This document shows positions 1,779 to 29,097 of a stretch of DNA of 29,097 nt, in pieces. Source of the DNA: Phycisphaerales bacterium UBA1845 (GTDB lineage Bacteria; Planctomycetota; Phycisphaerae; UBA1845); contig DDIR01000049.1 of NCBI GenBank assembly GCA_002338715.1, positions 92,218 through 121,314 on the forward strand, given 5' to 3'. The stretch's first letter is position 1, and each line of letters begins with the position of its first letter. The notes below the pieces were generated by a model. It saw nothing but the letters and a program-made list of their open reading frames with translations, did no database searches and had not been told where the DNA came from. The position numbers were made by a program, and so were the translations under genes.

Positions 1779-1798
1779 TCAATCAAAGGGGAATTCCA

Positions 1799-2068
1799 AT
1801 GTGTCTGGCTGTTCCGGGCAAACTCATCGACGTCACCAATTCTCCCGATATGGCCGACGGTTTGGCCAGCGGTACGGTTGATTTTCAAGGGACGCGAATC
1901 AAGGCGAATCTGATTTTCACGCCGGAAGCCCGCGAAGGCGATTGGGTTCTCGTGCATGCCGGATTCGCGATTCAGAAATTGACGGAAGCGGAGGCGCTGG
2001 AAACCTGGAAGTACCTCGATGTCGGCGAAATCGAGGAAGAACTGCCCGCTGCCGAACCATTTCGCTAA
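1799..2068 (+). CDS. hypC: [NiFe]-hydrogenase assembly chaperone HypC
   Basis: 89 residues, the normal size for HypC/HybG/HupF. It begins with the diagnostic MCLAVPGKL; Cys2 (N-terminal after Met removal) is the residue that contacts HypD and the Fe(CN)2CO unit and then the large-subunit precursor. The middle contains the conserved GDWVLVHAGFAIQKL segment that ends the OB-like fold, followed by a helical tail (EALETWKYLDVGE). An AGGGGA ribosome site precedes the ATG. It lies between hypF and hypD in the usual hypC-hypD-hypE order, and hypD starts 14 bases after its stop. Confidence 0.97.
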   Translation: MCLAVPGKLIDVTNSPDMADGLASGTVDFQGTRIKANLIFTPEAREGDWVLVHAGFAIQKLTEAEALETWKYLDVGEIEEELPAAEPFR

Positions 2069-2082
2069 CACAGGGGTGCGAA

Positions 2083-3189: not shown

Positions 3190-3192
3190 GCC

Positions 3193-4230: not shown

Positions 4231-4254
4231 GCCAATGTTAACGGAGCAGGTTCA

Positions 4255-5409
4255 ATGAAAAACAAGGTCTTGTATACCATCAACAAAAGTGAGCTGGACA
4301 AGCTCATCGGTATACTCCAACGAGATGGTTACCGGGTAGTCGGCCCCACCGTTCGCGACGGGGCCATCACGTACGAGGAAATCGAATCGGTCCGGCAGCT
4401 TCCGATCGGCTGGACCGATTCGCAGTCCCCCGGACGTTATCGCCTGAACAGGCGCAATGATGATCATCTGTTCGGGTATGTCGTCGGTCCCCATTCACTC
4501 AAGAAGTTTTTCTTTCCACCCAAGCAACGGTTGTTCGGCATCAAACGAGACGGTGAATCCGGGTATATCTTTGAGGCCCACCAGCCCGACCCGCCGCGTT
4601 ATGCCTTCCTTGGTGTTCGGGCGTGCGACCTCGCCGCCGTCGGTGTGCAGGATCGCGTCTTCAAGCAAACGATGGCCGAACCCTATTACGCCAAAGCCCG
4701 CAACGATGCGCTGTTTATCGCGGTCAACTGCACCGAGCCTGGCGGGACGTGTTTCTGCGGATCGATGGGAACGGGGCCGCGTTGCAGCGAAGGCTTTGAC
4801 CTCGCCCTGACCGAACTTCGCACCACATTTACCGTCGAAGTCGGGACGAACAAGGGTCGCCAACTGATCGAAGCACTGGAGCATGAGACGACCGACGCCA
4901 ACACCAGCCATCTCGTCGATTTGCTGATGGACAACGCGGCAGAACACATGGGTCGAACGCTGGATACGGAGGATCTTCCGGACATTCTGCTGAAAAACCT
5001 TTCGCACGATCACTGGAACGAGGTGGCCAAGCGGTGCATGTCGTGCTCGAACTGCACGTTTGCGTGCCCGACGTGTTTTTGCAGCAACGTCGAAGACTCG
5101 ACCGATCTTTCCGGCAACCACGCCGAGCGGTGGCGCACGTGGGGTTCATGTTTCACGTTGGAATTCTCCTATCACACCGGTGGATATTCGCGTTCGACGC
5201 CGGCTGCCCGCTATCGCCAATGGTTGACGCACAAGTTGGCCAACTGGCATGAGCAGTTTGGAACGTCGGGATGCGTGGGGTGTGGGCGGTGTATCACCTG
5301 GTGTCCGGTTGGAATCGACATAACCAAAGAGGCAACAACGATCGCCAATGACGTGAAACGTTCAAGGGCGAATCAGGAGGCCAAGCGCCTTGAGGAGGTG
5401 GGATCATGA
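4255..5409 (+). CDS. hydB: Group 3b hydrogenase beta subunit, 4Fe-4S electron-transfer protein (HydB/AsrA-like)
   Basis: Homologous to the beta subunit of Pyrococcus-type sulfhydrogenase and to anaerobic sulfite reductase AsrA; it carries electrons between the hydrogenase module and the flavoprotein. 384 residues. Visible features: an N-terminal domain with GPHSLKKFFFPP, YAFLGVRACDLAA and GGTCFCGSMGTGP, then a [4Fe-4S] site starting at about residue 261 (CMSCSNCTFACPTC) and a second at about 339 (CVGCGRCITWCP). GGAG lies before the ATG. Its TGA overlaps the next ATG (ATGA at 5406-5409). The order hydB-hydG-hydD-hydA is the same as in Pyrococcus furiosus hydrogenase operons. The substrate could also include polysulfide, as reported for archaeal homologues; not decidable here. 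Confidence 0.92.
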   Translation: MKNKVLYTINKSELDKLIGILQRDGYRVVGPTVRDGAITYEEIESVRQLPIGWTDSQSPGRYRLNRRNDDHLFGYVVGPHSLKKFFFPPKQRLFGIKRDGESGYIFEAHQPDPPRYAFLGVRACDLAAVGVQDRVFKQTMAEPYYAKARNDALFIAVNCTEPGGTCFCGSMGTGPRCSEGFDLALTELRTTFTVEVGTNKGRQLIEALEHETTDANTSHLVDLLMDNAAEHMGRTLDTEDLPDILLKNLSHDHWNEVAKRCMSCSNCTFACPTCFCSNVEDSTDLSGNHAERWRTWGSCFTLEFSYHTGGYSRSTPAARYRQWLTHKLANWHEQFGTSGCVGCGRCITWCPVGIDITKEATTIANDVKRSRANQEAKRLEEVGS

Positions 5410-14284: not shown

Positions 14285-15283
14285 CTAAACAAACGGTCGA
14301 AAGGTGTTGAGCTCGCGCATGTAGTTACCCCTTTCGAACGCAGCCGGGTTTGGGCAGGTGACCTGATTCATGCTGCCCTGCAGTTGTCTGACGCTGTGAT
14401 ACTCGTGATCCTCCATCCATTCGCGCATGCCTTCGAGAATGAACTGGATTGAATGAATGCCATTACGAAGCAGCGTCGCGCAGAGCATCGTCGCATCAGC
14501 GCCGGCCATCATCATCTTGAGGACGTCGAACGACGTATACACGCCGGTTGTCGCGGCGAGTGATGCATCAAGATGGGCGTCGAGGATGGCGATCCAACGA
14601 AGCGGCAGACGCATTTCGTGCGGTGCGCTGAAGCGAAGGTCCGAGACGATTTCCAGTTCTTCGAGATCGATGTCGGGCTGATAGAAGCGATTGAATAGGA
14701 CGAGTCCATCGGCGCCAGCGTCTTCAAGCTGTTCGGCGAAGTGGGCGAGTGCGCTGAAGTAGGGACCGAGTTTGAGCGAGACCGGAATGGTGACCGCTTT
14801 CTTCACGGCTTCGAGAATTTCGATGTGGCGGTTTTCGATGTCCCGCCCAGAAGTTTCGGCGTCGGCAGCGATGAGGTAGATGTTGAGTTCGATCGCGTTC
14901 GCGCCGGCTTCCTGCATCATGCGGGCGTGCTCGACCCATCCACCGACCGACGTGCCGTTGAGGCTGCCGATTACGGGAATATCAACCGATTGTTTCACCT
15001 TGGCGAGGTGCTCGATGTATTCCTCCGGACCGCGCGGGAAGCCGACATGGTGGGGCATGTACGACAGCGCTTCCGCGAAGCTGTCCGTTCCGTAATCCAT
15101 GTAATGATCGTGGACGACGGCTTCGTTTTCGATCTGCTCCTGGAACAGCGAGTACATCACAATCGCAGATGCGCCCGCGTCTTCCAGTTCCTTGCATGTG
15201 TCCAGGCTTCTGCTTAAGGGCGATGCGCCGGCCACCAGCGGGTTCTTCAGTTCCAATCCGAGGTACGTTGTTGAAAGGTCCAT
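14285..15283 (-). CDS. Dihydroorotate dehydrogenase-like TIM-barrel protein
   Basis: 332 residues. The start MDLSTTYLGLELKNPLVAGASPLSRS, the GAGADG-type strand ends, VSLKLGPYF and the C-terminal TTGVYTSFDVLKMMMAGAD phosphate-binding region resemble class 1 dihydroorotate dehydrogenase, so an FMN-binding barrel is likely. The place where PyrD carries its catalytic N-x-S-C-P-N loop reads ELNIYLIAADAE instead, so it is unlikely to be a true pyrimidine enzyme. It begins 21 bases after nifJ with GAGGAAA before the ATG and is almost certainly in the nifJ operon. From memory, such proteins often sit beside nifJ in other bacteria; their reaction is unknown to me. Confidence 0.88.
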   Translation of the reverse strand: MDLSTTYLGLELKNPLVAGASPLSRSLDTCKELEDAGASAIVMYSLFQEQIENEAVVHDHYMDYGTDSFAEALSYMPHHVGFPRGPEEYIEHLAKVKQSVDIPVIGSLNGTSVGGWVEHARMMQEAGANAIELNIYLIAADAETSGRDIENRHIEILEAVKKAVTIPVSLKLGPYFSALAHFAEQLEDAGADGLVLFNRFYQPDIDLEELEIVSDLRFSAPHEMRLPLRWIAILDAHLDASLAATTGVYTSFDVLKMMMAGADATMLCATLLRNGIHSIQFILEGMREWMEDHEYHSVRQLQGSMNQVTCPNPAAFERGNYMRELNTFRPFV

Positions 15284-15304
15284 GGCGACTTTCCTCTGGT
15301 CACG

Positions 15305-18300
15305 TTAGTTGGCGGACGCGGTTTCCTTGTTATCCGTTGACGGTTCAGCCGGTGCTTCTGGTTTGGGCTTGCTGACTCCGGCGATTTCTTCGTAGAACGC
15401 TCGTTGTTCGGCGATCTGCTGCTGCTGTTCGCGGCGTAGCGACGTTGCCCGGTCGGCATCGGTGCGCTCCAACACGGCGAAGCGGTTTTCCAGTCGCGTG
15501 AATTCACCGAGTGGCATGCGGGCGGCTGGCGAGTCGAGTTGCAGCGGTCGCTGCGATTCGGCGACGCGTCGTGGATCGTAGCGGAACAGCGGCCAATACC
15601 CGCTCTTCACCGCGGCTTGCTGATTGTTCATCGCGGTGGTCATGTTGATGCCGTGTGCGATGCAGTGGCTGTATGCGATGATCAGCGACGGTCCGTCGTA
15701 CGATTCGGCTTCGATAAATGCCTTGACGCACTGATTGTCGTTGGCGCCCATCGCGACTTTTGCGACGTAGACGTTGCCATAGCTCATCGCCATCAAGCCC
15801 AGGTCTTTCTTGCCCGATGGCTTGCCGGCGGCTGCAAACTTGGCGACCGCACCGCGCGGGGTGGCTTTGGAGCATTGCCCGCCCGTGTTGGAATACACTT
15901 CGGTATCGAGCACAAGGACGTTGACATTCGCGCCCGACGCAAGGACATGGTCCAGACCGCCAAAGCCGATGTCGTACGCCCATCCGTCACCGCCGACGAT
16001 CCACACGCTACGCTTGACCAACGTGTCGATGACGCTGAGCAGGTTCTTCGCCGCAACGCTTTCGTCGCTGTCGAGTGCAACCTTGACCTTGGCGACCCGT
16101 TCACGCTGGGCGATGATGCCGGCTTCGTTGGATTGATCGGCTGAGAGGATTGCTTCGACAAGATCGCCACCGATCTGACCGGACAAGTGTTGCAAGAGTT
16201 CTGCCGCAAATTCCTTTTGCTTGTCGATGGCAACACGGAAGCCCAGTCCGAACTCGGCGTTGTCTTCAAAGAGTGAGTTCGACCAAGCCGGTCCGCGTCC
16301 GTCGCGATTCGTCGTCCACGGCGTTGTCGGCAGGTTACCACCATAAATCGATGAGCAACCCGTGGCATTGGCGATGACAGATCGATCGCCGAAGAGTTGG
16401 CTCATCAGTTTGACGTATGGCGTTTCACCGCAGCCGGCACACGCGCCGGAGTATTCGAAGAGCGGTTCGAGGAATTGCGAACCCTTGACGCTATCGATCT
16501 TGAGTGCGGTGCGATCGAACTCGGGGATGTCGAGGAAGAAGTCGAAGCTGTCGCGTTCCGGTTCGAGGTGCTCTTCGAGCGGTTTCATGTTGATGGCTTT
16601 GAACTTGGGTTGTTCTTTGTTCTTCGCCGGGCAGATGTCCACGCAGATGCCGCAACCGGTGCAGTCCTGCGGTGCGACCTGGATTGTGAACTTGAGGTCT
16701 TTGTATTCCTTGCCCTTACCGGCGGCAGATTTGAACTGCGCTGGAGCTCCCGCGAGACATTCTTCCGAGTAGGCCTTCATGCGAATCGACGCGTGCGGGC
16801 AGACCATCGCGCACTTGCCGCACTGGATGCAGACGTCGGCGTCCCAGATCGGAATCTCGTTGGCGATGCTGCGTTTTTCCCACTTGGCCGTCGCGGTCGG
16901 GAACGTGCCATCGACCGGCATGGCGCTGACCGGAAGTCGATCGCCTTCGTTGGCGATGATCTTCGCGGTGAGCGATTTAACAAAGGTGGGTGCCCGATCG
17001 CTTACGACGGCTGGTCGTTCGACGGAACTGCTGACGCGATCGGGCACGGGGATTTCGTGGAGGTTCTCCAGGGCGCTATCGACGGCGAGGAAGTTCATCT
17101 TGACGACCTTATCGCCTTTACCGCCATATGATTTCATGATTGCAGTTTTGATGTGGGTGATGGCTTCGTCGCGCGGAAGCACGCCAGAGATCGCAAAGAA
17201 GCATGACTGCATGAGCGTATTGATGCGTCCGCCCAGACCGATCTTGCGACCGACCGCGTAGGCATCGATGGCATAGAGCTTGAGCTTCTTGTCGATGATC
17301 GATTGCTGCACTTCTTTCGGAAGACGATCCCACACTTCATCCGGTTCAGCGCCAATGTTGAGCAGCAGCGTGGCGCCCGGTTCGACGATGTCGAGGATGT
17401 CGTACTTCTTGAGGAACTGTTCGTGGTGGACGGCTGCAAAGTTCGCTCGGCTGATCAGGTACGACGATTGAATCGGTCGCGGTCCGAAACGCAGGTGCGA
17501 CGTCGTGACCGAGCCCGCCTTTTTCGAGTCGTAGACGAAATAGCCCTGGGCGAAGTTGTCGGTTTCCTCGCCGATGATCTTGATCGAGTTCTTGTTCGCG
17601 CCGACGGTACCGTCCGAACCGAGGCCGTAGAATACCGCTCGCACGACATCCTTGGGTTCGGTTGAGAAATCCGTGTCGTAGTCGATCGACGTGTGGGTGA
17701 CGTCATCCACGATGCCGACGGTGAAGTGGTTCTTCGGCTGATCCTTGGTCAGCTCGTCATAGATGCCTTTGACCATTGCGGGCGAAAATTCTTTTGATGA
17801 GAGGCCATAGCGACCGCCGACAACCATCGGGCGTTTCGCGAAGCCGTTGCGTCCGGCATCGAAATGTTCGGACATCGCCGTGACGACGTCTTGGTAGAGC
17901 GGTTCACCGAGTGCGCCGGGTTCCTTGGTGCGATCAAGCACCGCGACTTTGACCGCACTCTTGGGTAGCGCTTTAATCAGCGCCTCGCCATCAAGCGGGC
18001 GATACAAACGCACTTTGAGCAGTCCGATTTTTTCGCCCTGGGCGACGAGGTGATTCACGGTTTCGTGCGCGGCTTCCGCACCCGAACCCATCATCACGAT
18101 CACGCGCTCGGCTTTGGGATCACCGACATAATCGAACAGGTGGTAAGACCGGCCGGTGATCTCTGCGAATCGGTCCATGACCTGCTGCACGGTCTGCGGG
18201 CACGTCGCATAGAACGAGTTGCATGCCTCGCGGGCCTGGAAGAACACGTCGGGATTTTGCGCCGAACCACGAAGCACCGGATGATCGGGCGACAAGCCGC

Positions 18301-18904
18301 GAGCGCGATGATCGAGCACGCTTTGATTGTTGATGAGTTGACGCAACTGATCGTCGGTTAGGGCTTCGATCTTCGACACTTCGTGCGACGTACGGAAACC
18401 GTCGAAGAAGTGGATGAACGGAATGCGCGATTCGAGCGTCGCAGCGTGGGCGATGGCGGCCATGTCGGTGACTTCCTGCACCGATCCCGAAGCGAGCAGC
18501 GCCCAACCGGTGGATCGGGTGGCCATCACGTCGCTGTGATCCCCAAAGATGGAAAGTGCGTGGGCGGCGATGGAACGAGCACTGACATGGAAGACGGCTG
18601 GCGTGAGTTCGCCCGCGATCTTGAACATGTTGGGGATCATCAGCAGGAGGCCCTGCGACGCGGTGAACGTCGTGGTGAGCGCACCGATCTGCACCGAACC
18701 GTGAAGGGCACCAGCCGCTCCGCCTTCGCTTTGCATTTCGACGACACGCGGCGTCGTGCCCCACAGGTTCTTCATGCCCTGGGCTGCCCAGGCATCGGAA
18801 AGTTCGCCCATGCCGGAGCTTGGCGTAATCGGGTAGATCGCGATGACCTCACTGGCCCGATAGGCAACGCGTGCAGCGGCTTCATTTCCGTCGATGGTGA
18901 TCAT
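15305..18904 (-). CDS. nifJ: Pyruvate:ferredoxin (flavodoxin) oxidoreductase, single chain
   Basis: 1199 residues, the full length of single-chain PFOR. Pyruvate + CoA gives acetyl-CoA + CO2 with reduction of ferredoxin or flavodoxin. Order of domains: pyrimidine-binding POR_N (IYPITPSSGMGELSDAW near 23-40), transketolase C-like region, gamma-like domain (GLGSDGTVGANKNSIK), a ferredoxin domain with two [4Fe-4S] sites near 691 (CIQCGKCAMVCP) and 746 (CTGCGICVDICP), then the TPP domain (CAGCGETPYVK near 820, GCSSIYGGNLP, GDGWAYDIGFGGLDH). The C-terminus carries a Pro/Glu/Ala-rich extension of about 25 residues. GAGGG lies seven bases before the ATG. Cytoplasmic. Confidence 0.98.
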   Translation of the reverse strand: MITIDGNEAAARVAYRASEVIAIYPITPSSGMGELSDAWAAQGMKNLWGTTPRVVEMQSEGGAAGALHGSVQIGALTTTFTASQGLLLMIPNMFKIAGELTPAVFHVSARSIAAHALSIFGDHSDVMATRSTGWALLASGSVQEVTDMAAIAHAATLESRIPFIHFFDGFRTSHEVSKIEALTDDQLRQLINNQSVLDHRARGLSPDHPVLRGSAQNPDVFFQAREACNSFYATCPQTVQQVMDRFAEITGRSYHLFDYVGDPKAERVIVMMGSGAEAAHETVNHLVAQGEKIGLLKVRLYRPLDGEALIKALPKSAVKVAVLDRTKEPGALGEPLYQDVVTAMSEHFDAGRNGFAKRPMVVGGRYGLSSKEFSPAMVKGIYDELTKDQPKNHFTVGIVDDVTHTSIDYDTDFSTEPKDVVRAVFYGLGSDGTVGANKNSIKIIGEETDNFAQGYFVYDSKKAGSVTTSHLRFGPRPIQSSYLISRANFAAVHHEQFLKKYDILDIVEPGATLLLNIGAEPDEVWDRLPKEVQQSIIDKKLKLYAIDAYAVGRKIGLGGRINTLMQSCFFAISGVLPRDEAITHIKTAIMKSYGGKGDKVVKMNFLAVDSALENLHEIPVPDRVSSSVERPAVVSDRAPTFVKSLTAKIIANEGDRLPVSAMPVDGTFPTATAKWEKRSIANEIPIWDADVCIQCGKCAMVCPHASIRMKAYSEECLAGAPAQFKSAAGKGKEYKDLKFTIQVAPQDCTGCGICVDICPAKNKEQPKFKAINMKPLEEHLEPERDSFDFFLDIPEFDRTALKIDSVKGSQFLEPLFEYSGACAGCGETPYVKLMSQLFGDRSVIANATGCSSIYGGNLPTTPWTTNRDGRGPAWSNSLFEDNAEFGLGFRVAIDKQKEFAAELLQHLSGQIGGDLVEAILSADQSNEAGIIAQRERVAKVKVALDSDESVAAKNLLSVIDTLVKRSVWIVGGDGWAYDIGFGGLDHVLASGANVNVLVLDTEVYSNTGGQCSKATPRGAVAKFAAAGKPSGKKDLGLMAMSYGNVYVAKVAMGANDNQCVKAFIEAESYDGPSLIIAYSHCIAHGINMTTAMNNQQAAVKSGYWPLFRYDPRRVAESQRPLQLDSPAARMPLGEFTRLENRFAVLERTDADRATSLRREQQQQIAEQRAFYEEIAGVSKPKPEAPAEPSTDNKETASAN

Positions 18905-19178: not shown

Positions 19179-21428
19179 TTATTGAGGCGCTGCCCGCAAT
19201 TCATGGTAGTTGAGGAACCGATAACTGCCCTCATAGCCGTGGCACGAACTGCAGAGGTTCGGGGCGACGTATGACCGCAGCAGGAGCTTTTGGGCCCGGC
19301 GCTCGGCTTCGCTTGGCGGACGATCATCGTTCGCGTGGTCGGTCAGGTTTCGCCCGTGCGGTTCGTGGCAGGTGAGGCAATCGATTTGACCATTGGGATC
19401 GTCCCCTTTGTGGGCAAGCGGGAGGATCGAGGTCGCACCTTCCAGGTTTGGTTCTCGCAAGAAAACCTGCGGGTGGGGCAGCAGGTTCACCGGTTCGGAA
19501 ATTCCGCCTGGACCGTGGCAGCCGAGGCAGCGCGACGCCGTTTCGGTGTTGGCGTTTGCAAAATACGGTCCAACCCACATGCCGTTGACGACTTCGTCGG
19601 CGTGGGTGGCGTGACAAGGTCCGCAGGTTGACGGATGCGTGCCCGCCAGCGCGACGACCTTCTGGTTTTCCATGAACGACTGGGCGTGCAAACCTTCGTG
19701 GATCGGTGAGGTCTGCGGATGGCATTCGAAACAAAGCGACGTGGTGTCGCCGCCGGTTTGGTTGCGCAACAGCGCCGGCGTGACGTCGGAGTTCGCATGC
19801 GGATCGTGGCAACTGGCGCAAGACATTTGACCGTTGGGGTCGCGCTCGCAGGTTTTGGTAAAGAACGGAAGCGAAGTTGAGTGCGTCGTGCCAGCGGCTG
19901 TTGAGATTTTGGTAAGCGGATGACGCAGCGTCTGCGGAAGGTGCTCGCCGGCCAACCCGTCCTGCTGATGGCATCCGAGGCAGAAATCTTCCGGCGTGGT
20001 GGGCGGCGTGTCGGTGGCGGTCCACATCAGCGGACCCTTGCCTTCGTGAATTCCGTGACACGTGCCGCACGTTCCGGTTTCTTTTGAAGTCCGACCCGCG
20101 GCATTGACCAAGTCGGATCGATTTGAGAATTCATGAGCGCCGGCCAGCGTCATGGACTGCGCCTGGTGACACGATGCGCACACCTGATCGGGCTTACCGC
20201 GCAGGAAATGATCATTGGCGGTTTCGTGCGGGTTGTGACAGGTCAGGCAGGCCATCGAGTCGGCATCGATGTGTCCCTGGGCGGCGAAGAGACGCATGTT
20301 TTCCATCTGCGGCGTTGCGCCGGGGATGTTGATCGGATGCCCGTGGGCGAGTCCGCCGGCGCTTTCCGCGCATTCACCTTTTTTGTGGCAGCTTGTGCAA
20401 CTGCCGGTGATGTCATAAGCCGAGGCTTCGAACGCGCGGGCGGGTTCGTGGGCGCCGTGACATGCGCTGCACGGTCCGCTGTCGGTTGCGGTCATGCCGC
20501 GGGCGTTTTGCTCCGACTCGGCGCTGGTGCGCAGATCGTGACGACTATCGAAGATGCGATCGAAACCCGCATGGCAATCGAGACAAACGGCGCTGTCGGC
20601 CAGCGTATTTTGCAAGAGCTTTTTGTCGCTCGAATCCTTGTGCATGGCGTGGCAGGAGATGCAGATCAGCGTTTCGCCGGGACCGGTCTGCGTTTCCCAA
20701 CGTGCGAGCGTCTCTCTTTGATGGTCTGTTTTGATCTTCACGTTGCGCGGATGCGTGTGCGCGAGATTGTCCTTCCACGCGTCGGGCGTCAAGACTTCGT
20801 GACAGCGCAGGCAGAGGCCTTCGTCGCTCGGCGACGTGACCAGCAATCGATCGGACTTGCCGCCGTGCGGTGTGTGGCAACTTTGACAGGTGACTTCGTT
20901 GTCGTTCGGTCCGTCGTGGGCCCACTTTGGCCTGGTGCTGTCCGGAATCGTGTAATCGATCTGTTTGAGCGGGTGGTGATTGTCTCCAACCGCAGAGGTA
21001 TGACACATCGTACACAGTTGACTCTGCTCGTTGGGCACGCGCGTGAAGATGGTCGTGGCGATCGTTTCACCCGGACCGGCATGGGCGGAGTGACACGTTC
21101 GACAGTTGAGCGTCCCATCGATCAGCGGCAGCGATTCGGGGATGGTCATCGAGTCGGGTGGCGTGGTTCCGGTTCGATGTCCGTGCTCCAACCACACGCG
21201 ACGACGCGAATCGCCAACCCCGCCGTCATGGCAACCCAGGCAGGTCGCTTCCGTCGAAACGGACGGCTGACCTGGCTTGTCGATCAGCAGAATCGCATTG
21301 GGATCTTCAAACGACGACACCCATTCAAGGTGGCACGTGGCGCACTGGCGGGGGCTTCGTGGGCCGGTCTGCGCGAGCGCGACAGCGGTGACGGCGAAGA
21401 CGCTTAGGATTGCAGCGATTCGAATCAT
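19179..21428 (-). CDS. Secreted 20-haem c-type cytochrome
   Basis: 749 residues with an N-terminal signal peptide (about 1-19, ending AVALA|QTG) and 20 CXXCH haem sites spread evenly from Cys29 (CATCH) to the C-terminal CSSCH. Several sites read CHxPH or CHxxH (CHTPH, CHNPH, CHDPH, CHEPH, CHSAH), the pattern of the doubled-CXXCH/cytochrome c3-like families in which the extra His ligates a neighbouring haem. No CXXCK or other catalytic haem site is present, so electron transfer rather than nitrite or hydroxylamine chemistry is expected. No membrane helix beyond the signal is seen; the site is periplasmic or extracellular. It is the last gene of the operon and overlaps the NHL gene as ATGA; GAGGGA precedes the start. 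Confidence 0.92.
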   Translation of the reverse strand: MIRIAAILSVFAVTAVALAQTGPRSPRQCATCHLEWVSSFEDPNAILLIDKPGQPSVSTEATCLGCHDGGVGDSRRRVWLEHGHRTGTTPPDSMTIPESLPLIDGTLNCRTCHSAHAGPGETIATTIFTRVPNEQSQLCTMCHTSAVGDNHHPLKQIDYTIPDSTRPKWAHDGPNDNEVTCQSCHTPHGGKSDRLLVTSPSDEGLCLRCHEVLTPDAWKDNLAHTHPRNVKIKTDHQRETLARWETQTGPGETLICISCHAMHKDSSDKKLLQNTLADSAVCLDCHAGFDRIFDSRHDLRTSAESEQNARGMTATDSGPCSACHGAHEPARAFEASAYDITGSCTSCHKKGECAESAGGLAHGHPINIPGATPQMENMRLFAAQGHIDADSMACLTCHNPHETANDHFLRGKPDQVCASCHQAQSMTLAGAHEFSNRSDLVNAAGRTSKETGTCGTCHGIHEGKGPLMWTATDTPPTTPEDFCLGCHQQDGLAGEHLPQTLRHPLTKISTAAGTTHSTSLPFFTKTCERDPNGQMSCASCHDPHANSDVTPALLRNQTGGDTTSLCFECHPQTSPIHEGLHAQSFMENQKVVALAGTHPSTCGPCHATHADEVVNGMWVGPYFANANTETASRCLGCHGPGGISEPVNLLPHPQVFLREPNLEGATSILPLAHKGDDPNGQIDCLTCHEPHGRNLTDHANDDRPPSEAERRAQKLLLRSYVAPNLCSSCHGYEGSYRFLNYHELRAAPQ

Positions 21429-22369
21429 GGGTTCCCTCGAAACGTTGCATTCAATTCAACCACGGCGACGCGACCCGGTTTGGCCTCCACGACGAGCAGT
21501 CGCCCGCGTGCGTCAAAGCAAAGGCCCATCGGATGTTCGAAGCGGAGGATCTTTCCATTGTCATCGGTCAAGACGCCGAGCGTATCGCCCAACGGCGCGA
21601 AGACCTGCACGGTGCCGAGCGATGAGTCGCTCAGGTAGATGCGATCCTTCGCGTCGGTTGCGATGCCTTTGGGGCGAAACGATTGTCCGAGTTCCACACC
21701 CCAACTTGAAATCGATTGACTCCAGCGGTTCTTCGCGTCGAAGCGTTGGATGCGTGCGCCGATCGCTTCGGAAATCACGAACGATCCATCGCTGCACGGG
21801 GCCGCGAGGAAGGGCCATTCGAGTTGCCCAAGTCCGCGCCCACGAACGCCGGATGTTGAAAAGGTCCCGTTGGTGTTGTCCCTGACGAGCACGCGATGGT
21901 TGTCGTTGTCGATGATGAGGGCGCGTTTTCCGTCGGCGCTGAGGGCGATCCCGGTGACATCGACGGGGGCATTCGCTTGCGGCAGGTCGATTACCTTCAC
22001 CGTCTTAAAACCATTAGATGTCACCAGCACGCGATGATGCCCATTGTCTGCAATCCAAAGTCGATCGCCCGAATCGAAGCACAACCCGATGGGGTTGCTG
22101 AGTGTTTCATCGCCCAGCGCCCGCGTTGCGCCATCGAATTGACCATCGCGATCAAAGCAGAGGATGCGATCGTTGACGCCGTCGGCGACGTAGATCTTGC
22201 CACCACGATCGACGGCGACATCGGTCGGGTACTGCATCGCATCGCCTTCGGGCGCGCTGACCGTTTGGACGATCTTGGCGGCGATGCGCTTCTCAGCCGG
22301 TATGTCGGCTGCGTACGCCGTCGCGTACATCATCGCCAGTATTGCACTTGCCCACCGCCATCTATTCAT
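21425..22369 (-). CDS. Exported six-bladed NHL-repeat beta-propeller
   Basis: 314 residues. Signal peptide 1-20 (MNRWRWASAILAMMYATAYA), then six NHL repeats, each with a P/G-x-x-x-D/C-GxL/IYVAD-type core: YPTDVAVDRGGKIYVAD, SNPIGLCFDSGDRLWIAD, VTGIALSADGKRALIID, WPFLAAPCSDGSFVISE, FRPKGIATDAKDRIYLSD and FEHPMGLCFDARGRLLVVE. NHL propellers bind proteins or ligands and seldom have enzymatic activity; no haem site is present. ATG 22369 is chosen because it gives the signal peptide and overlaps the upstream cytochrome stop by eight bases; the open frame before it reads through the cytochrome gene. Likely a structural or docking partner of the cytochromes (inference from position). Confidence 0.88.
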   Translation of the reverse strand: MNRWRWASAILAMMYATAYAADIPAEKRIAAKIVQTVSAPEGDAMQYPTDVAVDRGGKIYVADGVNDRILCFDRDGQFDGATRALGDETLSNPIGLCFDSGDRLWIADNGHHRVLVTSNGFKTVKVIDLPQANAPVDVTGIALSADGKRALIIDNDNHRVLVRDNTNGTFSTSGVRGRGLGQLEWPFLAAPCSDGSFVISEAIGARIQRFDAKNRWSQSISSWGVELGQSFRPKGIATDAKDRIYLSDSSLGTVQVFAPLGDTLGVLTDDNGKILRFEHPMGLCFDARGRLLVVEAKPGRVAVVELNATFRGNP

Positions 22370-23393
22370 CGGTTGGCGACTCCAGAACGTTGGGCAGATG
22401 GAACGTCTTACCGTCGCGAATCTGTTGCACCATGTTGGCGATGGCGTTGTTTTGCAGCGGGCCGATGCGGTTTTCCGGGTAACCCAGCGCTGCAAAGTCG
22501 ATTCGCGTCGGTTCTGCATCGTGACACTGTTGGCACGCCCGCGGTTTGACGAGGACGTTCTTATGGATCTTGTCTTGAATTGCCCGGCGATTGGCTCCTC
22601 CGTCTTTCGGTGAGAAGTACGCTTCGATCAGCGGTTCTAATTCGTTCGTGGAGTAGCCGGTGTTGTTTTTCGGCGCGATGATTGCACCATAGTCACCCTT
22701 GGCCATCGAGGGCAGGACCGCCCGCAATCTTGCCAACGCATGTCGATGCATTGGGCTTGCCGGTTCGGACGTTTCCAATTGCAGCAAGAGATGCGGCAGA
22801 ACCGGATTGGGCGGAGCGGCTTCGATCGCCTCGCGCACGAGTTCGATCATTTTATCGCCGCCTTCTGGTAATTCCTCGCCCTGAAACTGCGAGACGAGCA
22901 GCAGCAGTGCGGGCGTTGATTGCGGTTCACCGCTGCTCACGTTCTTCCAGCCGATGCCCTCTTCCTTGGTGAGTGCGTTGCGGTGACACATGGCGCAGTC
23001 GAGAAAGGTGACGTGAAAGTTGGCGAGCGCCCGCGTGGCTTTGTCGGTTTCGTGCGGCAGAATCGTGTGGCAACCGCTCGTCAGGCATCCAGTTTGAAAT
23101 CGGCCAAATGAAAGCTCGCCGACACCGTGATAGTGATCGAGCGGCGCCGTATCGCCGTCATCGATCATTCTTGACGGATCGTTTCCGTCGAGTGTCGCGA
23201 GGTCGAGTTGCAGCGGTCGGTTGGTGAATCGATCGGGCGTCAGCTTGGGCGAGAACACCGAACGAAACAAAAACGCAAACGCGCAATACGAAATCCACGT
23301 CACGGCGATGAGCAGCCCCAGCGAGTAAAGCCGAATGACTAGGCCTTTGAAGGCACCGTGATGATGTGTTGAACTGTGCCCTTGGTTGGTCAC
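22362..23393 (-). CDS. Membrane-anchored triheme c-type cytochrome
   Basis: 343 residues. A short His-rich cytoplasmic N-terminus (SSTHHHGAF) is followed by one membrane helix (about 18-44) and a long periplasmic domain. Haem sites: CLTSGCH (a CX4CH form), CAMCH (22 residues later) and CQQCH near residue 285. The segment between the second and third sites (about 150 residues, helical, with PPNPVLPHLLLQLE) has no haem motif and is not recognised. GTG start overlaps the upstream stop as GTGA, with GGAG seven bases before it. It probably receives electrons from the cytochrome b/c fusion encoded just before it; that is inference. Confidence 0.85.
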   Translation of the reverse strand: MTNQGHSSTHHHGAFKGLVIRLYSLGLLIAVTWISYCAFAFLFRSVFSPKLTPDRFTNRPLQLDLATLDGNDPSRMIDDGDTAPLDHYHGVGELSFGRFQTGCLTSGCHTILPHETDKATRALANFHVTFLDCAMCHRNALTKEEGIGWKNVSSGEPQSTPALLLLVSQFQGEELPEGGDKMIELVREAIEAAPPNPVLPHLLLQLETSEPASPMHRHALARLRAVLPSMAKGDYGAIIAPKNNTGYSTNELEPLIEAYFSPKDGGANRRAIQDKIHKNVLVKPRACQQCHDAEPTRIDFAALGYPENRIGPLQNNAIANMVQQIRDGKTFHLPNVLESPTDE

Positions 23394-25303
23394 TTCGATT
23401 CTCCGTCACTGATGGCGAGGTCGCTGGCCGCTTGCTTGAGCATGCCGGCATGGGCGTCGGCCATCTCTGCTGCCGGCGTCTCACCCGTAAACATGGCTTT
23501 GTGCAGCGGGAACACGTGGGGCGAAAGCATGACCCCGATCATGTGGAACACGAACACGTGCAATATCGCAAGGTACGCTTCCAGCGTGTGGATCAGGTTG
23601 GAGACGGTGAGCATGCGTCCGCTGACGTAGTGACTCGTCCACGAATTGCCCCACATCAAAATGCCCGTCATGCCCAGGAGCGTGCATCCCCAGAACACGC
23701 CGAAGTATTCGAACTTTTCCTTCAAACCGAAGCGTCCGGGAGCGGGCCGCGTCTTTCGCAAGAAGAACAGGAAGCCCAGAAGGTGCAGCAGTTCCTTCAC
23801 GTCGGCTGGCGTGACCACCAGCGGAAGATCGAGCACCGCCCGCATCCAACTGACGTTGCGCCGGCGCTTGTCCTGAATCAAACAATACAGCACGTAGAGA
23901 ATGTGATAGACCGCACCGACAACCAGGATCAATCCGGAATAGCGATGAATCCGTCGGGCCATCGTCAGTCCGCCGAGGGTTTCGATCAGCCACTTCGCCC
24001 AGGGATCGCCCGCAAACTTGATCGGGAAACCCGTCAGGACGAGTGCGGTGAAACAGATGGCGAGGATCCAGTGCTGCACGCGCTGGTGGATACTGAAACG
24101 TGAAAGCTTCTGCGTGCCATCGGGGTTCTGCTTGATGCGGTTGTTCAGATCGATGTATTCGAAGTGGCGCAGGTTGTGACGCCCAAGCACCAACTGCAAC
24201 AGCTCCAGCAATTGCAGGACTGCCGACGGACCAAACGTGCACATGATCAGCACGACGAACATGCCCGCGATCATGAATTCAATGGACCAGATGGATTGCT
24301 TCGGGCTGGTTGTCGTCGCTGCAACACCGCCCGATGAATCAGAGCGATCATCCGATGACGCCGTCTCGTATCGACTTGGCGTGATTTCCATGTGGACCGC
24401 TGCGGCTGTCACCAGCGCACCCGCAGCCGGATGGCAGGCATCGCTGCGGCAGGTGTCGGGCAGTTTGCCTTCGTTCGCAGAAGATGCGACCGCATCGTGC
24501 GGTTTCATGGTATGGACGTTTTGCAGTTCACCCACATGGCAATCAAGACAGCCGGCGGTCTCTTCGTCACCAAGAAGCATCGCCTTGCCATGAAAACTCG
24601 CGAGGTAGCTCGCGACGGTATCGGGCATTTCAAACTCGCGCCGCACGGCTGAATTGCTATGGCACAGCGCGCAACTTCGGGCAAGCTGTTCATGGGTTCG
24701 GGCGGGGTGACTTCGCGAGACAACGTGCTTGAACGCGAAGGGCGTGTCCTGGGGAAGCCGCTCACCGTGACACACATCGCAACGACTCGTTGAGGCGTCT
24801 TCAAAGGCGAAGCGCTTCTTGTCGCGTCGGAAGGTCGGCTCATCGTGACAAAGCAGGCACGTGGACTGACCTTCACGCAGCGGCGATCCGAGTAACTCGT
24901 TGCTTTTCTTGAGCACCTCGGGCGTGTGGGCTGAGTGCTTGAGCATGTCGGCGATGCTGTCGTGGGCAAACTGCTGCGGCGGTCGATTGGGTGTCACAAG
25001 GTGGCACGCGTTGGTGCAGTCAACCGGCGTCACCGATTGGTGGGGGATGACAGCCACCTGGTCGCGCGGGTGGCAGTCGGTGCATTTCAGGCGGGCGTGC
25101 GGACCCAGTTCGCGATCGTAGTACATCGGATCGACGTGAAAGAGGCGAACGGACTCGCCGTTTTCATCGATTCGCCCCAGGCCCTGATAGCGGTGGCACA
25201 TCAGGCAGTTTTCGGGGTCGGCTGCCCGCGCCACCGCCTGTATGCCCAAGGCCCATGCCATCGCGCAAACCGCAATCCATCGTTGATACGTCTTACCGTT
25301 CAT
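23390..25303 (-). CDS. Octahaem cytochrome c fused to cytochrome b (CbcL-like quinone module)
   Basis: 637 residues in two parts. After a signal peptide (1-28, ending VARAA) a periplasmic domain from Cys33 to about 325 holds eight haem c sites: CLMCH, CTDCH, CTNACH (CX3CH), CLLCH, CDVCH, CALCH, CLDCH and CRSDACH (CX4CH). A Ser/Thr-rich linker leads to a membrane part with about five or six helices, including HQRVQHWILAICFTALVLTGF, RIHRYSGLILVVGAVYHILY and IHTLEAYLAILHVFVFH, whose histidines suit a dihaem cytochrome b of the FdnI/HydC type. Geobacter CbcL has this architecture and passes menaquinol electrons outward. ATG 25303 gives the signal peptide; an upstream GTG (25336) in frame is less likely. 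Quinol oxidation here is inferred. Confidence 0.88.
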   Translation of the reverse strand: MNGKTYQRWIAVCAMAWALGIQAVARAADPENCLMCHRYQGLGRIDENGESVRLFHVDPMYYDRELGPHARLKCTDCHPRDQVAVIPHQSVTPVDCTNACHLVTPNRPPQQFAHDSIADMLKHSAHTPEVLKKSNELLGSPLREGQSTCLLCHDEPTFRRDKKRFAFEDASTSRCDVCHGERLPQDTPFAFKHVVSRSHPARTHEQLARSCALCHSNSAVRREFEMPDTVASYLASFHGKAMLLGDEETAGCLDCHVGELQNVHTMKPHDAVASSANEGKLPDTCRSDACHPAAGALVTAAAVHMEITPSRYETASSDDRSDSSGGVAATTTSPKQSIWSIEFMIAGMFVVLIMCTFGPSAVLQLLELLQLVLGRHNLRHFEYIDLNNRIKQNPDGTQKLSRFSIHQRVQHWILAICFTALVLTGFPIKFAGDPWAKWLIETLGGLTMARRIHRYSGLILVVGAVYHILYVLYCLIQDKRRRNVSWMRAVLDLPLVVTPADVKELLHLLGFLFFLRKTRPAPGRFGLKEKFEYFGVFWGCTLLGMTGILMWGNSWTSHYVSGRMLTVSNLIHTLEAYLAILHVFVFHMIGVMLSPHVFPLHKAMFTGETPAAEMADAHAGMLKQAASDLAISDGESK

Positions 25304-26213
25304 GACATGCACCGCAAATGTTGTTGCCATACCCACGCATTTTCATCGGGTCGGTCAGGTCGAAGTCGGCCTGCGCACCGCGGGCCAGTGTACTGTTGGG
25401 CGCGAACCATCCTGCGCCGTGCGGATTGTGACAGGTGGAACACGTGATTGTCTGATTCTTCGTCAGAGGAAGATCTGTGACGCGTTGCCGCATCTGGGCA
25501 GGCATTTTCGTGCCATGGTGTCCCGGTTCGAAGAAATCGACGTGTTGCGTATGACACCCAAGACAGATCGACGTTTCATCGTCGATCAGATTCGGTTTGT
25601 TTGTTCGCTGCCCCGTTCGATCCATCGACACATTGCTGTTGTGGCAGTAGTAGCAGGCGTTCGTCCGCGGCTCGCCGGCATCATCAAGCATGATGTGCGG
25701 GTTGAATTTCTCGTGGCTGCTGTTGTCGACGTGGCAATTGGCACAGAATGCAACCGGGTCGTCGGTGATTCTTCCACGAAGAAATGCCGCATTGCGAGAA
25801 GGACGCGAGCGCGTTCGGTCGCAGGCCAACAACACATCGTGACACGTTAAACAACTGAGCATGCCATCCTGAGCCGGCCAACCTTCTGGCAGATGAATGT
25901 CCGGGCTGTCAAATGGACGGTTGGCTGGGTGCTTCTCGGATTCCGCCCGCACGCCATCATGACACGCGAGACAGTTGGCTGTGACGTCGCGATGGTTCGT
26001 CGCTTTCTGCGGTTGACCGGATGGGTGACACTGCGAACAACCGTTGGGCGACCAGTGGGGGTTGGGGGCTTTGCCGGTTGGCGTCGAGACGACCGTCGAA
26101 TCATCGGCGCGCAGAAACGCGATCGGATACACCGCACCCGCAAACAGAACGATGCCCGTTGCGATGGCGAGCGACTTTGCCGCACGCGGTTTCAATGTGC
26201 TATTCGTCCCCAT
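25293..26213 (-). CDS. Exported octahaem c-type cytochrome
   Basis: 306 residues with an N-terminal signal or anchor helix (about 12-36, SLAIATGIVLFAGAVYPIAF after KPRAAK) and eight CXXCH sites: CSQCH, CLACH, CLTCH, CANCH, CYYCH, CLGCH, CSTCH (CSTCHNPH) and CGACH, the last only two residues before the end. The spacing and scattered His residues suit a bis-His multihaem wire. ATG 26213 has AAGGA five bases upstream and overlaps the preceding NHL gene by 14 bases; the frame upstream lies within that gene. It overlaps the CbcL-like gene by 11 bases. No catalytic motif is seen. Confidence 0.88.
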   Translation of the reverse strand: MGTNSTLKPRAAKSLAIATGIVLFAGAVYPIAFLRADDSTVVSTPTGKAPNPHWSPNGCSQCHPSGQPQKATNHRDVTANCLACHDGVRAESEKHPANRPFDSPDIHLPEGWPAQDGMLSCLTCHDVLLACDRTRSRPSRNAAFLRGRITDDPVAFCANCHVDNSSHEKFNPHIMLDDAGEPRTNACYYCHNSNVSMDRTGQRTNKPNLIDDETSICLGCHTQHVDFFEPGHHGTKMPAQMRQRVTDLPLTKNQTITCSTCHNPHGAGWFAPNSTLARGAQADFDLTDPMKMRGYGNNICGACHER

Positions 26214-27342
26214 GGGATTCCTTGGTCGCAGTGTCTTTTGCATGCGGGGCAACGGATCGCCCAACCGCTTCGTCGACACCGATCAACACCAACTGCGGTG
26301 CGCCCAGCGAATCGGAAACGACAAGCCAGTCTGCCGCCTCCGGGTGGCGCGAAAAATTCGGATTACGCGTCATATCAATCGCGTCGCACGCACCCAACGA
26401 TGCAATTCCCATCGGCAGCGTCAATCCACCCCAGGCTCCGCGCCGTTCGTGAATCTCCACGACAAAATCGCCAGCCGCATCAAACACGAGGATCGACTGA
26501 CGGGCTGCATCGGTGACGCAGATTGATCCGCCGCGCGTCACGCAGACCTGCTTGGGGCGGACGAATTCACCGTTGCCGCGTCCCTTGCGACCGAGTGGCG
26601 ATTTCGGGCTGCCATCTGCCGCGAGTCGAAAGACCACGCCCGCCACCGCGTCGGCGACGAGCAGGGTGTTGTCAGCCGTCATCGCCAGTCCCGTCGGCGC
26701 AACCATTTTCGGGCTGGCGCTGGCGGCTGTCATTGGTGGAAGCCAATTGCCTTGATCGATGCTCCATCGGTGGACGGAGTGGCCGGCCAGGTCGCCTACA
26801 TACAGCGTTCCATTGTGGGCCAACACGCCGCCCGGTCGAAATTCTCCGCCGGGTGCGATCTGTCCAAGGTAACGTCCTTCAGGATCGTACGAGAGGACCA
26901 CCTTCAGCGTTGTGTCGGCCACATAGACATTGCCGATTTCGTCGGTCGTGATATCAACCGGGCATCGCGGGCGTCGCGACGGATCATCAATCCACGAGCG
27001 AACGCGCCCGGTTTGAAAATCGATCGCGATCACGTCGGGCCGCCCCTGGTCGCAAACCAGCAGTTCATCGCCAACGCGCACGATCCCCTGCGAATTGCGA
27101 AGGATCGGGGGAGGGGTGTCGGCTGGCCCGTATAGAAAGTCTTCGAGCGTCGACGACTTGCGATAGTTCGGCAGCGTCTGCGTCATGTCGCCCAACACGG
27201 TCAAAGCGGGCGCGCCGCTCGATCCAGTGAAGGTCTGCGGGACGAACCATTCGGGTGTTTGCGTCGACGGTGTGCATGCACCGCAGGCGAGCGCGCACGC
27301 TGCGCCGACGAACGCGACAAGTTTACTACCGAAATTCTTCAT
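26200..27342 (-). CDS. Second exported NHL-repeat beta-propeller, possible lipoprotein
   Basis: 380 residues. The N-terminus MKNFGSKLVAFVGAACALACGACTPSTQ is a signal sequence with several Cys at the cleavage region, so a lipoprotein is possible although no perfect L-A/S-G/A-C box is present. About six NHL repeats follow: QGIVRVGDELLVCDQG, CPVDITTDEIGNVYVAD, FRPGGVLAHNGTLYVGD, VAPTGLAMTADNTLLVAD, VRPKQVCVTRGGSICVTD and a degenerate last blade LPMGIASLG..WLVVSDS. It is not a copy of the other propeller gene. ATG 27342 was chosen for the signal peptide; a TTG five codons earlier is possible, and neither has a strong ribosome site. It lies 44 bases after the tetrahaem gene and overlaps the octahaem gene. 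Confidence 0.85.
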   Translation of the reverse strand: MKNFGSKLVAFVGAACALACGACTPSTQTPEWFVPQTFTGSSGAPALTVLGDMTQTLPNYRKSSTLEDFLYGPADTPPPILRNSQGIVRVGDELLVCDQGRPDVIAIDFQTGRVRSWIDDPSRRPRCPVDITTDEIGNVYVADTTLKVVLSYDPEGRYLGQIAPGGEFRPGGVLAHNGTLYVGDLAGHSVHRWSIDQGNWLPPMTAASASPKMVAPTGLAMTADNTLLVADAVAGVVFRLAADGSPKSPLGRKGRGNGEFVRPKQVCVTRGGSICVTDAARQSILVFDAAGDFVVEIHERRGAWGGLTLPMGIASLGACDAIDMTRNPNFSRHPEAADWLVVSDSLGAPQLVLIGVDEAVGRSVAPHAKDTATKESHGDE

Positions 27343-27386
27343 GAAACCGACATTCAAAACGACAACTTTCGAACTACTTCATTGAT

Positions 27387-28169
27387 TTACTTAACATGAC
27401 ACGTCAAACACAACGCGCTTCGGCGGTTGGATTTGACCAGCAACTTGTCGATCCCCGCGCTGTTGTGCGGATCGTGACACGATACGCATTCCATTCGACC
27501 TTCCGGCAGGCGAACCGTACCGTCAGCCGTCACAAATGATTCGGGTCGATATTCCCGATTGTTCGACGGATAAGGCACACCGATGGGATGATCGCGCCAG
27601 GCGAACCCTTCGGGCACCGAAAAGCCTTCGCGAACGCCCGCAAGCATTGCGTGGGCTGATCCAATCGTCGACGACGCCACCGTTCCATCGTGGCAACCGA
27701 GGCAGATCAGACTCGTCGGTCCGGGGGTGTAGCGGTCGGGTACGAATGTTTGCCGCTGTCCCTGGATGCGAAACAACTCGACGGCTGGCTCGACATCCTG
27801 ATCGATGGCGTCGCGATTTTCCGTATTGTTTTCATCGGTCGCGTCGGTGTTGTTGGTTGGTTTGCGGACGCGAACGGCTTGGACGTGCGGAATGTGGCAC
27901 GCGGAACATGCATCACCCGGTCGATGGGTCTCTTCGGAAAAATCATGGACGCTGCCGACCGTTCCGCTCATGTAGTTGGTTTGGGTGCGCGGAGTTTCGC
28001 TGCTATGAATTTGAGGGCTTTGGGTTTCGGTGTCTTGATCGTTGGCGTCGACCACCTTCATGTTGGAATCGGCCATGTCCGAATCGGCGCTCTTTGCCGG
28101 TTCGGATTGGCTGCCGTCCATCGCGAACAGCGCGACCAAACACATCGATAGCATTGCGAGACTTTTCAT
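27387..28169 (-). CDS. Exported tetrahaem c-type cytochrome
   Basis: 260 residues. Signal peptide about 1-22 (MKSLAMLSMCLVALFAMDGS..), then an acidic, Asp/Ser/Asn-rich stretch of about 45 residues, CSACHIPH, a second low-complexity Asn/Asp/Thr-rich insert (about 104-126), CLGCHDGT, CVSCHDPH and CLTCH two residues from the end. The CHIPH and CHDPH forms belong to the doubled-CXXCH type. The disordered acidic linkers may act as flexible tethers in the periplasm. It begins three bases after the stop of the preceding cytochrome gene, without a strong ribosome site. Confidence 0.87.
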   Translation of the reverse strand: MKSLAMLSMCLVALFAMDGSQSEPAKSADSDMADSNMKVVDANDQDTETQSPQIHSSETPRTQTNYMSGTVGSVHDFSEETHRPGDACSACHIPHVQAVRVRKPTNNTDATDENNTENRDAIDQDVEPAVELFRIQGQRQTFVPDRYTPGPTSLICLGCHDGTVASSTIGSAHAMLAGVREGFSVPEGFAWRDHPIGVPYPSNNREYRPESFVTADGTVRLPEGRMECVSCHDPHNSAGIDKLLVKSNRRSALCLTCHVK

Positions 28170-28172
28170 CGT

Positions 28173-29097
28173 TTAGCGTCCGTATTCAAATCGCACATGG
28201 GTCACACCGTGGCACACGAGGGTGCAACTTCCGCTGTATCGACCCAGGTCTTCGTATTCAACCCGAGCGCCCAACGCGCCGCTGGCCGGCCTGACGATCG
28301 AGCGATCAAAGTTGATCAGGTTGCTGTGGTTGCGACTGCTCGCCCGCATGCGGTTGATGCCGTGCGAATCGTGGCACGCCGAGCACGACGCCCGCCCTTG
28401 CGAGACGTGCACGTTGTGCAGCGGGAAGCTTTCGTCGCCGAGGATGCTGGCTCGATCGTGACATTGATAGCACAAGGCATACGCCCGCGGGCTTTCGGTA
28501 ACGTACTCATTCGTCGAATAGTTGGCTTTGAGCAGCGGGCGATAGATCGATCCGTGCGGTCCATTCACGCCGATCGCCGAACCCTGGCCTGACGTGTCGG
28601 AATTGTGGCAATCGGTGCAGCGCACCATCGACCCGACGCGCCACGGCGAAATCAAACTCACCACATCGTTGTTGTTGCGTGGGGCGATGACCGGGTGATA
28701 CGAGGGATTGCTCGGTTGGAACTGCATCCGCGTGTTCACTTCGGTCACGTCGCGCGAGATTGCGGGCCGGGCGTTGCGCGAACCGTTGTCAGCGTGACAC
28801 TTGAAGCACACTTCGTACTCGAAGCGGGAATTTTCGACGGGGCGGCCCGATCGATCGATACCCGACACGAAGCGCATCGTCGCGCTGATTTGCCCCAAGC
28901 CGGGACGATTGGACTGGCTGACGATCTGCGACTGGCTGGCGTGCGGATTGTGGCAGTCGGCGCATTCGACATGCTGCTGAGCGAGGCGCGGATCTTCGTC
29001 CGGATCGTGTCGGCCAATGAACCGCTGAACCGGATGGGCGCTGGGTTTGCGAATTTCCGAATCGATGTTCTTCGCCGCGATGCTGCCGTTGTGGCAG
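28173..29097 (-). CDS. Multihaem c-type cytochrome, N-terminal part outside window
   Basis: The frame is open from the window's right edge to the TAA near 28173, about 307 codons. TTG 28898, the first possible initiation codon in the visible part, is internal: the residues before it (..CHNGSIAAKNID.., AQQHVECADCHNPHASQ) continue the cytochrome pattern. Complete sites: CADCH, CFKCH, CTDCH, CYQCH, CSACH (CSACHDSH) and the CX3CH form CTLVCH close to the C-terminus; the edge cuts a further site after its CH. Signal peptide and earlier haems cannot be seen. It is the most upstream gene visible in the cytochrome operon, so the promoter lies beyond the window. Confidence 0.88.
   Translation of the reverse strand, partial: CHNGSIAAKNIDSEIRKPSAHPVQRFIGRHDPDEDPRLAQQHVECADCHNPHASQSQIVSQSNRPGLGQISATMRFVSGIDRSGRPVENSRFEYEVCFKCHADNGSRNARPAISRDVTEVNTRMQFQPSNPSYHPVIAPRNNNDVVSLISPWRVGSMVRCTDCHNSDTSGQGSAIGVNGPHGSIYRPLLKANYSTNEYVTESPRAYALCYQCHDRASILGDESFPLHNVHVSQGRASCSACHDSHGINRMRASSRNHSNLINFDRSIVRPASGALGARVEYEDLGRYSGSCTLVCHGVTHVRFEYGR

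Follow-up and report, generated by a model that had tools for sequence, protein, structure and literature searches.

The DNA analyzed here is a stretch of 29,097 nucleotides from Phycisphaerales bacterium UBA1845 (assembly GCA_002338715.1, contig DDIR01000049.1, forward strand). It is referred to as the window and corresponds to C7:92218-121314 of G000, C7 being the host contig and G000 the host genome. In its right-hand part lies an operon of multihaem cytochromes c, NHL beta-propellers and a membrane quinone module, which continues past the window and, since it reaches the contig end, comprises at least 13 genes. These are named A to M, starting from the last gene, and contain 80 haem c motifs, H being counted from its homologue in locus L037. 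Here, the genes, their conservation and their relation to known electron conduits are described, and a role in extracellular electron transfer is weighed.

Genes of the operon

The eight genes within the window, A to H, are open reading frames (ORFs) on the minus strand, which overlap with their neighbors or lie at most 29 bp apart. The operon is closed by A (19179..21428), an exported 20-haem cytochrome c of 749 amino acids (20 CxxCH motifs, PF09699), whose homologues also close the gene block in loci L054 and L055. It is preceded by B (21425..22519), an exported NHL beta-propeller (PF01436, 1.7e-25), whose translation, judged by the sequence, probably begins some 50 codons into the ORF. C (22362..23393) is an N-terminally anchored 3-haem cytochrome (two CxxCH, one Cx4CH; hydrophobic stretch at residues 13-31) without a match in the Pfam scan. 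In D (23390..25336) a cytochrome c domain with eight motifs (six CxxCH, one Cx3CH, one Cx4CH) and a cytochrome b561-type quinone module are combined. The latter matches PF01292 (4e-13, residues 413-618) as well as FdnI (1kqf_C, 9.6e-7), is by similarity of the formate dehydrogenase gamma type and displays six histidines (422, 464, 478, 583, 593 and 598) that are invariant in nine sequences. Further upstream are E (25293..26279), an exported 8-haem cytochrome c (8 CxxCH), F (26200..27357), an exported NHL beta-propeller (PF01436, 6e-9) with a weak lipobox-like ALAC at position 22, and G (27387..28169), a tetrahaem cytochrome of the OmcE family (4 CxxCH).

The last gene in the window is the C-terminal part of H (28173..29096; five CxxCH, one Cx3CH), a 12-haem cytochrome whose remainder runs to C7:122338 and contains six further CxxCH motifs. 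Here, the right edge of the window is an assembly gap of 94 N within the gene (L003 11515-11608). The flanks of the gap share 19 identical bases and read ...NCLNCHNGSI and CHNGSIAAKN..., and the L037 homologue is a single frame of 611 amino acids (11 CxxCH, one Cx3CH) with 98% identity to both host pieces. Due to this, H is probably continuous, with the gap being small or nil and an assembly artefact inside one gene.

The six cytochromes of the window thus contain 45 CxxCH and four wider motifs, 49 haem c motifs in all, and between 3 and 20 per protein. After shuffling of their residues the mean was 0.02-0.49 motifs per protein and the maximum was 4, so that the real counts are greatly in excess of chance. 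The original prediction, made on the window alone, had listed eight overlapping or nearly touching minus-strand genes with 49 haem motifs, a membrane quinone module and two NHL propellers, which agrees with the ORF positions, the motif counts and the domains of D, B and F.

Beyond the gap, five genes follow upstream on the same strand. I (C7:122245-123297) is a third NHL protein (PF01436) with the lipobox VGAC, and J (C7:123294-125594) codes for a predicted outer-membrane barrel of 766 amino acids. They are preceded by three multihaem cytochromes, namely K (C7:125604-126986; 8 motifs, lipobox LVGC), L (C7:127098-128465; 7+1 motifs, weak lipobox candidates) and M (C7:128510-129649; 9 motifs), which is cut by the contig end. 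The remark that no porin is visible therefore holds within the window, but only because the window edge falls before the barrel gene, which starts about 2 kb further on. The accompanying expectation that the operon continues toward an outer-membrane component was borne out by the extension of the contig.

The predicted structure of J contains 30 long strands (predicted local distance difference test score, pLDDT, 84.6). No match was obtained for J in Pfam at E<=0.01 or in a sequence search of the PDB up to E 1, and in the fold search the solved structure with the highest Z was MtrB. Cir, LptD, ZnuD, OccK2, BtuB and others were rejected as relatives, being generic barrel matches with root-mean-square deviations of about 6-23.

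An alternative explanation is a respiratory enzyme for a soluble substrate of the nitrite, tetrathionate or hydroxylamine type, with the operon proteins as its subunits. In line with this, K, L and M match the C554 and octahaem families in part, and H reaches 26.8 bits with the NrfB-like PF22678, just under the cut-off of 27. However, the NCBIfam models of NrfB, NrfH and octahaem reductase stay far below their cut-offs, PF02335 (Cytochrom_C552) scores 19.7 against a cut-off of 24.1, and no CxxCK motif is present in A to G, H (from L037), K, L or M; its absence from the eight window ORFs had been noted before. Furthermore, we know of no soluble-substrate respiratory enzyme that has a dedicated barrel and OmcE-type cytochromes among its parts. 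This explanation is therefore regarded as very improbable. No standard subunits of a known multihaem reductase complex were seen among the upstream genes, and the earlier view of the set as a wire and not a known respiratory enzyme is supported.

Two further loci of the host genome deserve a mention. Outside the operon, PF09699 is matched on contig C141 only (L053), where a second multihaem locus (631-3246 and 3212-4702, minus strand) harbors a 23-motif cytochrome distantly resembling A next to a protein with an NrfD-type membrane domain (just above cut-off) and a 6-motif c domain; this locus may represent another quinone module that supplies the conduit. Within the window, a full-length pyruvate:ferredoxin oxidoreductase of 1199 amino acids (15305-18904) is encoded in the same orientation, 274 bases past A.

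Conservation of the gene order

Matches to the barrel J are present in 32 of the 40 closest-kin genomes, host included. From the 46 barrel places listed in this search, 20 loci as well as L057 and L109 were taken. A scan of named genomes with the single J sequence gave one close relative, L037, titled Phycisphaerae bacterium, whose barrel has 97% identity and which corresponds to the contig match obtained in G004 of the same genus. In a sample of 392 genomes from the phylum, 21, host included, have H matches with E up to 1e-60, and 13 loci were taken from the 28 matches listed; among 72,556 plasmid records, H had no match. This resulted in 36 loci, 23 chosen by J and 13 chosen by H, which were searched with profiles.

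In 34 of these, H lies downstream of J on the same strand (21/23 of the J-chosen and 13/13 of the H-chosen loci; the misses are L031 and L023), so that a lack of conservation, which the original prediction had named as a refutation, was not seen. The profiles of J and H were built largely from the 36 loci themselves, but three loci absent from both alignments (L088, L099 and L109) still score 396-626 bits for J and 704-804 bits for H. An NHL gene follows directly after J in 31 of the 34 loci with a BLAST-called barrel (not in L017, L090 and L099), and a match to the G profile is present at 27 of the 36 loci, in L100 as a 6-motif protein. In G028, which is from another family, the genes follow each other as M, L, J, I, H, G, F, E, an additional gene with 12 motifs, D, C, B, A, with one ORF call on the opposite strand between L and J. 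Both halves of D are matched at E<=1e-70 in 12 of the 40 genomes, host included, with many others matching well in the b domain only. Away from the barrel, D-C adjoins cytochromes of the M or L type or A/B. Two genomes from the host genus, G001 and G003, gave matches to neither J nor D.

Variants of the set were observed as well. Genomes of the same family (loci L033, L034, L035 and L036) carry a second, paralogous barrel-NHL-H set, in which genes for a 5-haem, an NHL, a tetrahaem and a 13-15-motif protein precede the barrel. Beside the conduit of the same-genus locus L032, two genes (14473-16131 and 16328-17956) code for an ethylbenzene-dehydrogenase-type haem domain (PF09459, one CxxCH) and for a multihaem protein of the NapC/NirT type; here, quinone could have another point of entry.

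In several loci neighboring genes are fused, counted where both halves align within a single frame. An E-type domain follows behind an NHL domain in L017, L021 and L022, the NHL part being nearest to I in two cases and to F in one; B is fused to A in L104 and L110, and D to C in L032 and L110. Since L017 and L104 belong to one genome, as do L022 and L110, four genomes carry fusions. Two of the three NHL proteins are tied to the adjoining cytochrome by these fusions, and the large cytochromes thus seem to have their own propeller partners, F-E and B-A by fusion and I-H by position. The I-H pair depends on position because the proposed I+H fusions in L090 and L099 were rejected; here, the N-terminal residues (about 320) match neither the I profile nor Pfam NHL and read like out-of-frame sequence, and the same applies to A in L108 at its N-terminal end.

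Relation to the OmcE nanowire and to known conduits

The original prediction did not remark on the OmcE nanowire family, of which tetrahaem G and the N-terminus of H are members. With a profile built from 16 H proteins, 7tfs_A was matched with 3.4e-45 over the first roughly 200 positions, and the structure 7tfs is the OmcE nanowire of Geobacter sulfurreducens (PMC12954529). As a single sequence, the L037 protein matches 7tfs with 2.9e-26, and for the predicted model of H (pLDDT 65.5) 7tfs is the sole structural match below 0.001 (2.3e-6, 34% identity, template modeling score by target 0.61). The G profile (20 sequences) matches 9yuq_N with 1.6e-32 and OmcE 7tfs with 3.1e-29, whereas the single sequence of G matches 9yuq_N with 2e-7 and has no 7tfs match below 1e-3. 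9yuq is a 16-chain PDB structure of 218 residues, labelled 'Putative multiheme cytochrome c', and is nearer to G than OmcE is. By sequence, G and the first four haems of H (about 200 residues) are homologues of OmcE, the nanowire subunit, and all three have the series CxxCHxPH / CxSCHDG / DHP / CxSCHxxH / LCLxCH in common. In contrast to OmcE, G is divergent and H carries eight additional C-terminal haem motifs. All twelve motifs of H are kept in 38 sequences, with 26 invariant histidines, 12 within and 14 outside the motifs, which is enough for the bis-histidine ligation of twelve haems.

As an alternative to a conduit, J, I, H and F might form a secretion and assembly platform, which exports and polymerizes the OmcE-type G, with J-H not being a wire across the membrane itself. 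The OmcS block of Geobacter reportedly contains propellers and a prolyl isomerase. For this block, the eight genes GSU2500-2493, a function in nanowire maturation and secretion has been reported (Shen 2025, via PMC12977616), and by this description it is, like the operon, a multi-gene block tied to a cytochrome nanowire. The NHL genes adjoining the barrel and H, with G often nearby, fit to a platform as well. On the contrary, twelve fully conserved haem sites, as in H, would make an expensive chaperone, the same operon also contains a quinone module and other cytochromes, and no prolyl isomerase is present among the operon proteins scanned. In addition, a G match is missing at 9 of the 36 loci, eight of which contain H, although contig ends truncate some of these loci and in G025 G was found on another contig. 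Taken together, a pure platform appears unlikely.

One of the closest described systems is the undecahaem electron transfer conduit Uet (uetABCDEFGHIJ) of Ca. Tenderia electrophaga and some Gallionella (PMC10734462). Its description lists the undecahaem cytochrome UetJ (doubled, with 11 and 12 CXXCH motifs), the tetrahaem UetA, the barrel UetC, the NHL proteins UetHI, the prolyl isomerase UetB and the trihaem UetDEG (PMC10734462). By motif and domain UetJ resembles H (11 CxxCH and one Cx3CH, PF09699), by motif UetA resembles G (4 CxxCH), by fold UetC resembles J (30-strand barrel), and UetH/UetI resemble I, F and B, which match PF01436. Differences exist as well, since the prolyl isomerase and the trihaem UetDEG are not among the operon proteins scanned, in an operon that runs off its contig and a genome otherwise unsearched for them, and the host operon has instead the D-C quinone module, E, A, B, K, L and M. 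UetJ probably corresponds to the undecahaem Tel_16545 of PMC5371394. Genes for tetratricopeptide repeat proteins are reported beside the trihaem genes of Tenderia (PMC5371394), and such genes were found close to the core in L092, L094 and L098, three of nine neighboring proteins scanned. Compared by these descriptions, the core J-I-H-G-F may belong to Uet by gene content and may work like the Uet conduit.

Porin-cytochrome genes were already reported in Planctomycetota (PMC5566968, PMC10732223, PMC13264449), so that their presence in this phylum is not new in itself and the locus described here may be among those reported. With the core content being that told for Uet (PMC10734462), calling the conduit undescribed was too strong. 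PCC4, whose subgroup II includes Planctomycetes, has a porin together with multiple multihaem cytochromes of the periplasm, which carry 4, 5 and 10 motifs, and a b-type protein with five helices in the inner membrane (He 2017, PMC5566968). By description, G with its four motifs and the 5-motif gene beside the barrel in other loci would fit, whereas H has 12 motifs and is not a decahaem cytochrome, and NHL proteins are not mentioned in the part of that publication describing PCC4; PCC4 is thus a further candidate kin. With MtrCAB, MtoAB and PioAB, the operon shares the barrel combined with an exported multihaem cytochrome, but the MtrB_PioB family PF11854 matches neither J nor the rest of the host genome. 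The decahaem model DmsE/MtrA (TIGR03508, cut-off 192.2) is not reached by the two parts of H (39.4 and 33.9 bits) or by A (105.1 bits).

A probable conduit between the quinone pool and the cell surface

The gene content, the homologies, the predicted barrel, the conserved order and the fusions are best explained by extracellular electron transfer between quinone and the cell surface, with a Uet-like core and OmcE-family cytochromes, a function which we infer with a probability of roughly two in three. Here, the proteins would form a complex, in which D-C in the inner membrane (8+3 c motifs, cytochrome b) would exchange electrons with the quinone pool. E, and perhaps A, would act as a periplasmic relay passing electrons to the 12-haem H, which together with the large barrel J would constitute a wire across the outer membrane. 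On the outside, the tetrahaem G, which may form a filament, and the lipoprotein cytochrome K, possibly joined by L, would donate electrons to an insoluble partner or accept electrons from it. The NHL propellers would most likely assist in the assembly or docking of the cytochromes.

As to the direction of flow, D has a multihaem c domain and a b561-type domain in one chain. This architecture, multihaem c with a HydC/FdnI-type b domain, is presumably that of CbcL, an inner-membrane quinol oxidoreductase of Geobacter, with the difference that D, likened to it by architecture only, has eight c motifs and pairs or sometimes fuses with the 3-haem C. CbcL is a quinol-oxidizing module, which suggests an outward flow. 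The b domain of the formate dehydrogenase gamma type, in contrast, reduces quinone in that enzyme, and because D has a b domain of this type its architecture is not decisive on direction. The same machinery might run inward, taking up electrons from Fe(II), a cathode or a syntrophic partner, with oxygen being reduced by the oxidases of the genome. Such an uptake, which three COX1 homologues in the host genome would allow, concerns the direction only and is compatible with a conduit between quinone and surface. It is also the role proposed for Uet in the cathode-oxidizing Tenderiales and the Fe(II)-oxidizing Gallionella (PMC10734462). The pyruvate:ferredoxin oxidoreductase gene adjoining the operon speaks against uptake, as does the architecture of D, neither of them decisively. 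Uptake is considered somewhat less likely than not.

The OmcE-type domain of H allows a more speculative proposal. Here, H would be a built-in plug connecting the pore of the outer membrane with a cytochrome nanowire; the N-terminal domain of H would be the first subunit of a filament of the OmcE-family protein G, the C-terminal eight haems of H would run through the barrel J, and the NHL propellers would be assembly factors for individual cytochromes. We put this forward tentatively and consider it rather doubtful. If true, one covalent chain would hard-wire an extracellular nanowire to the periplasm.

We regard as new an inner-membrane-to-surface set in one operon, an OmcE-type domain built into a conduit cytochrome and the pairing of propellers with cytochromes. 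How electrons travel between cytochrome filaments outside and the interior of the cell has been called not well understood (PMC10553843). By combining a quinone module and a barrel with a cytochrome of the nanowire family and a chain that joins a nanowire-type to an eight-haem part, the operon offers a concrete and testable design for the junction between filament and cell. Judging from the occurrence of H and of the barrel in the genomes sampled, its Uet-like core is spread over a phylum.

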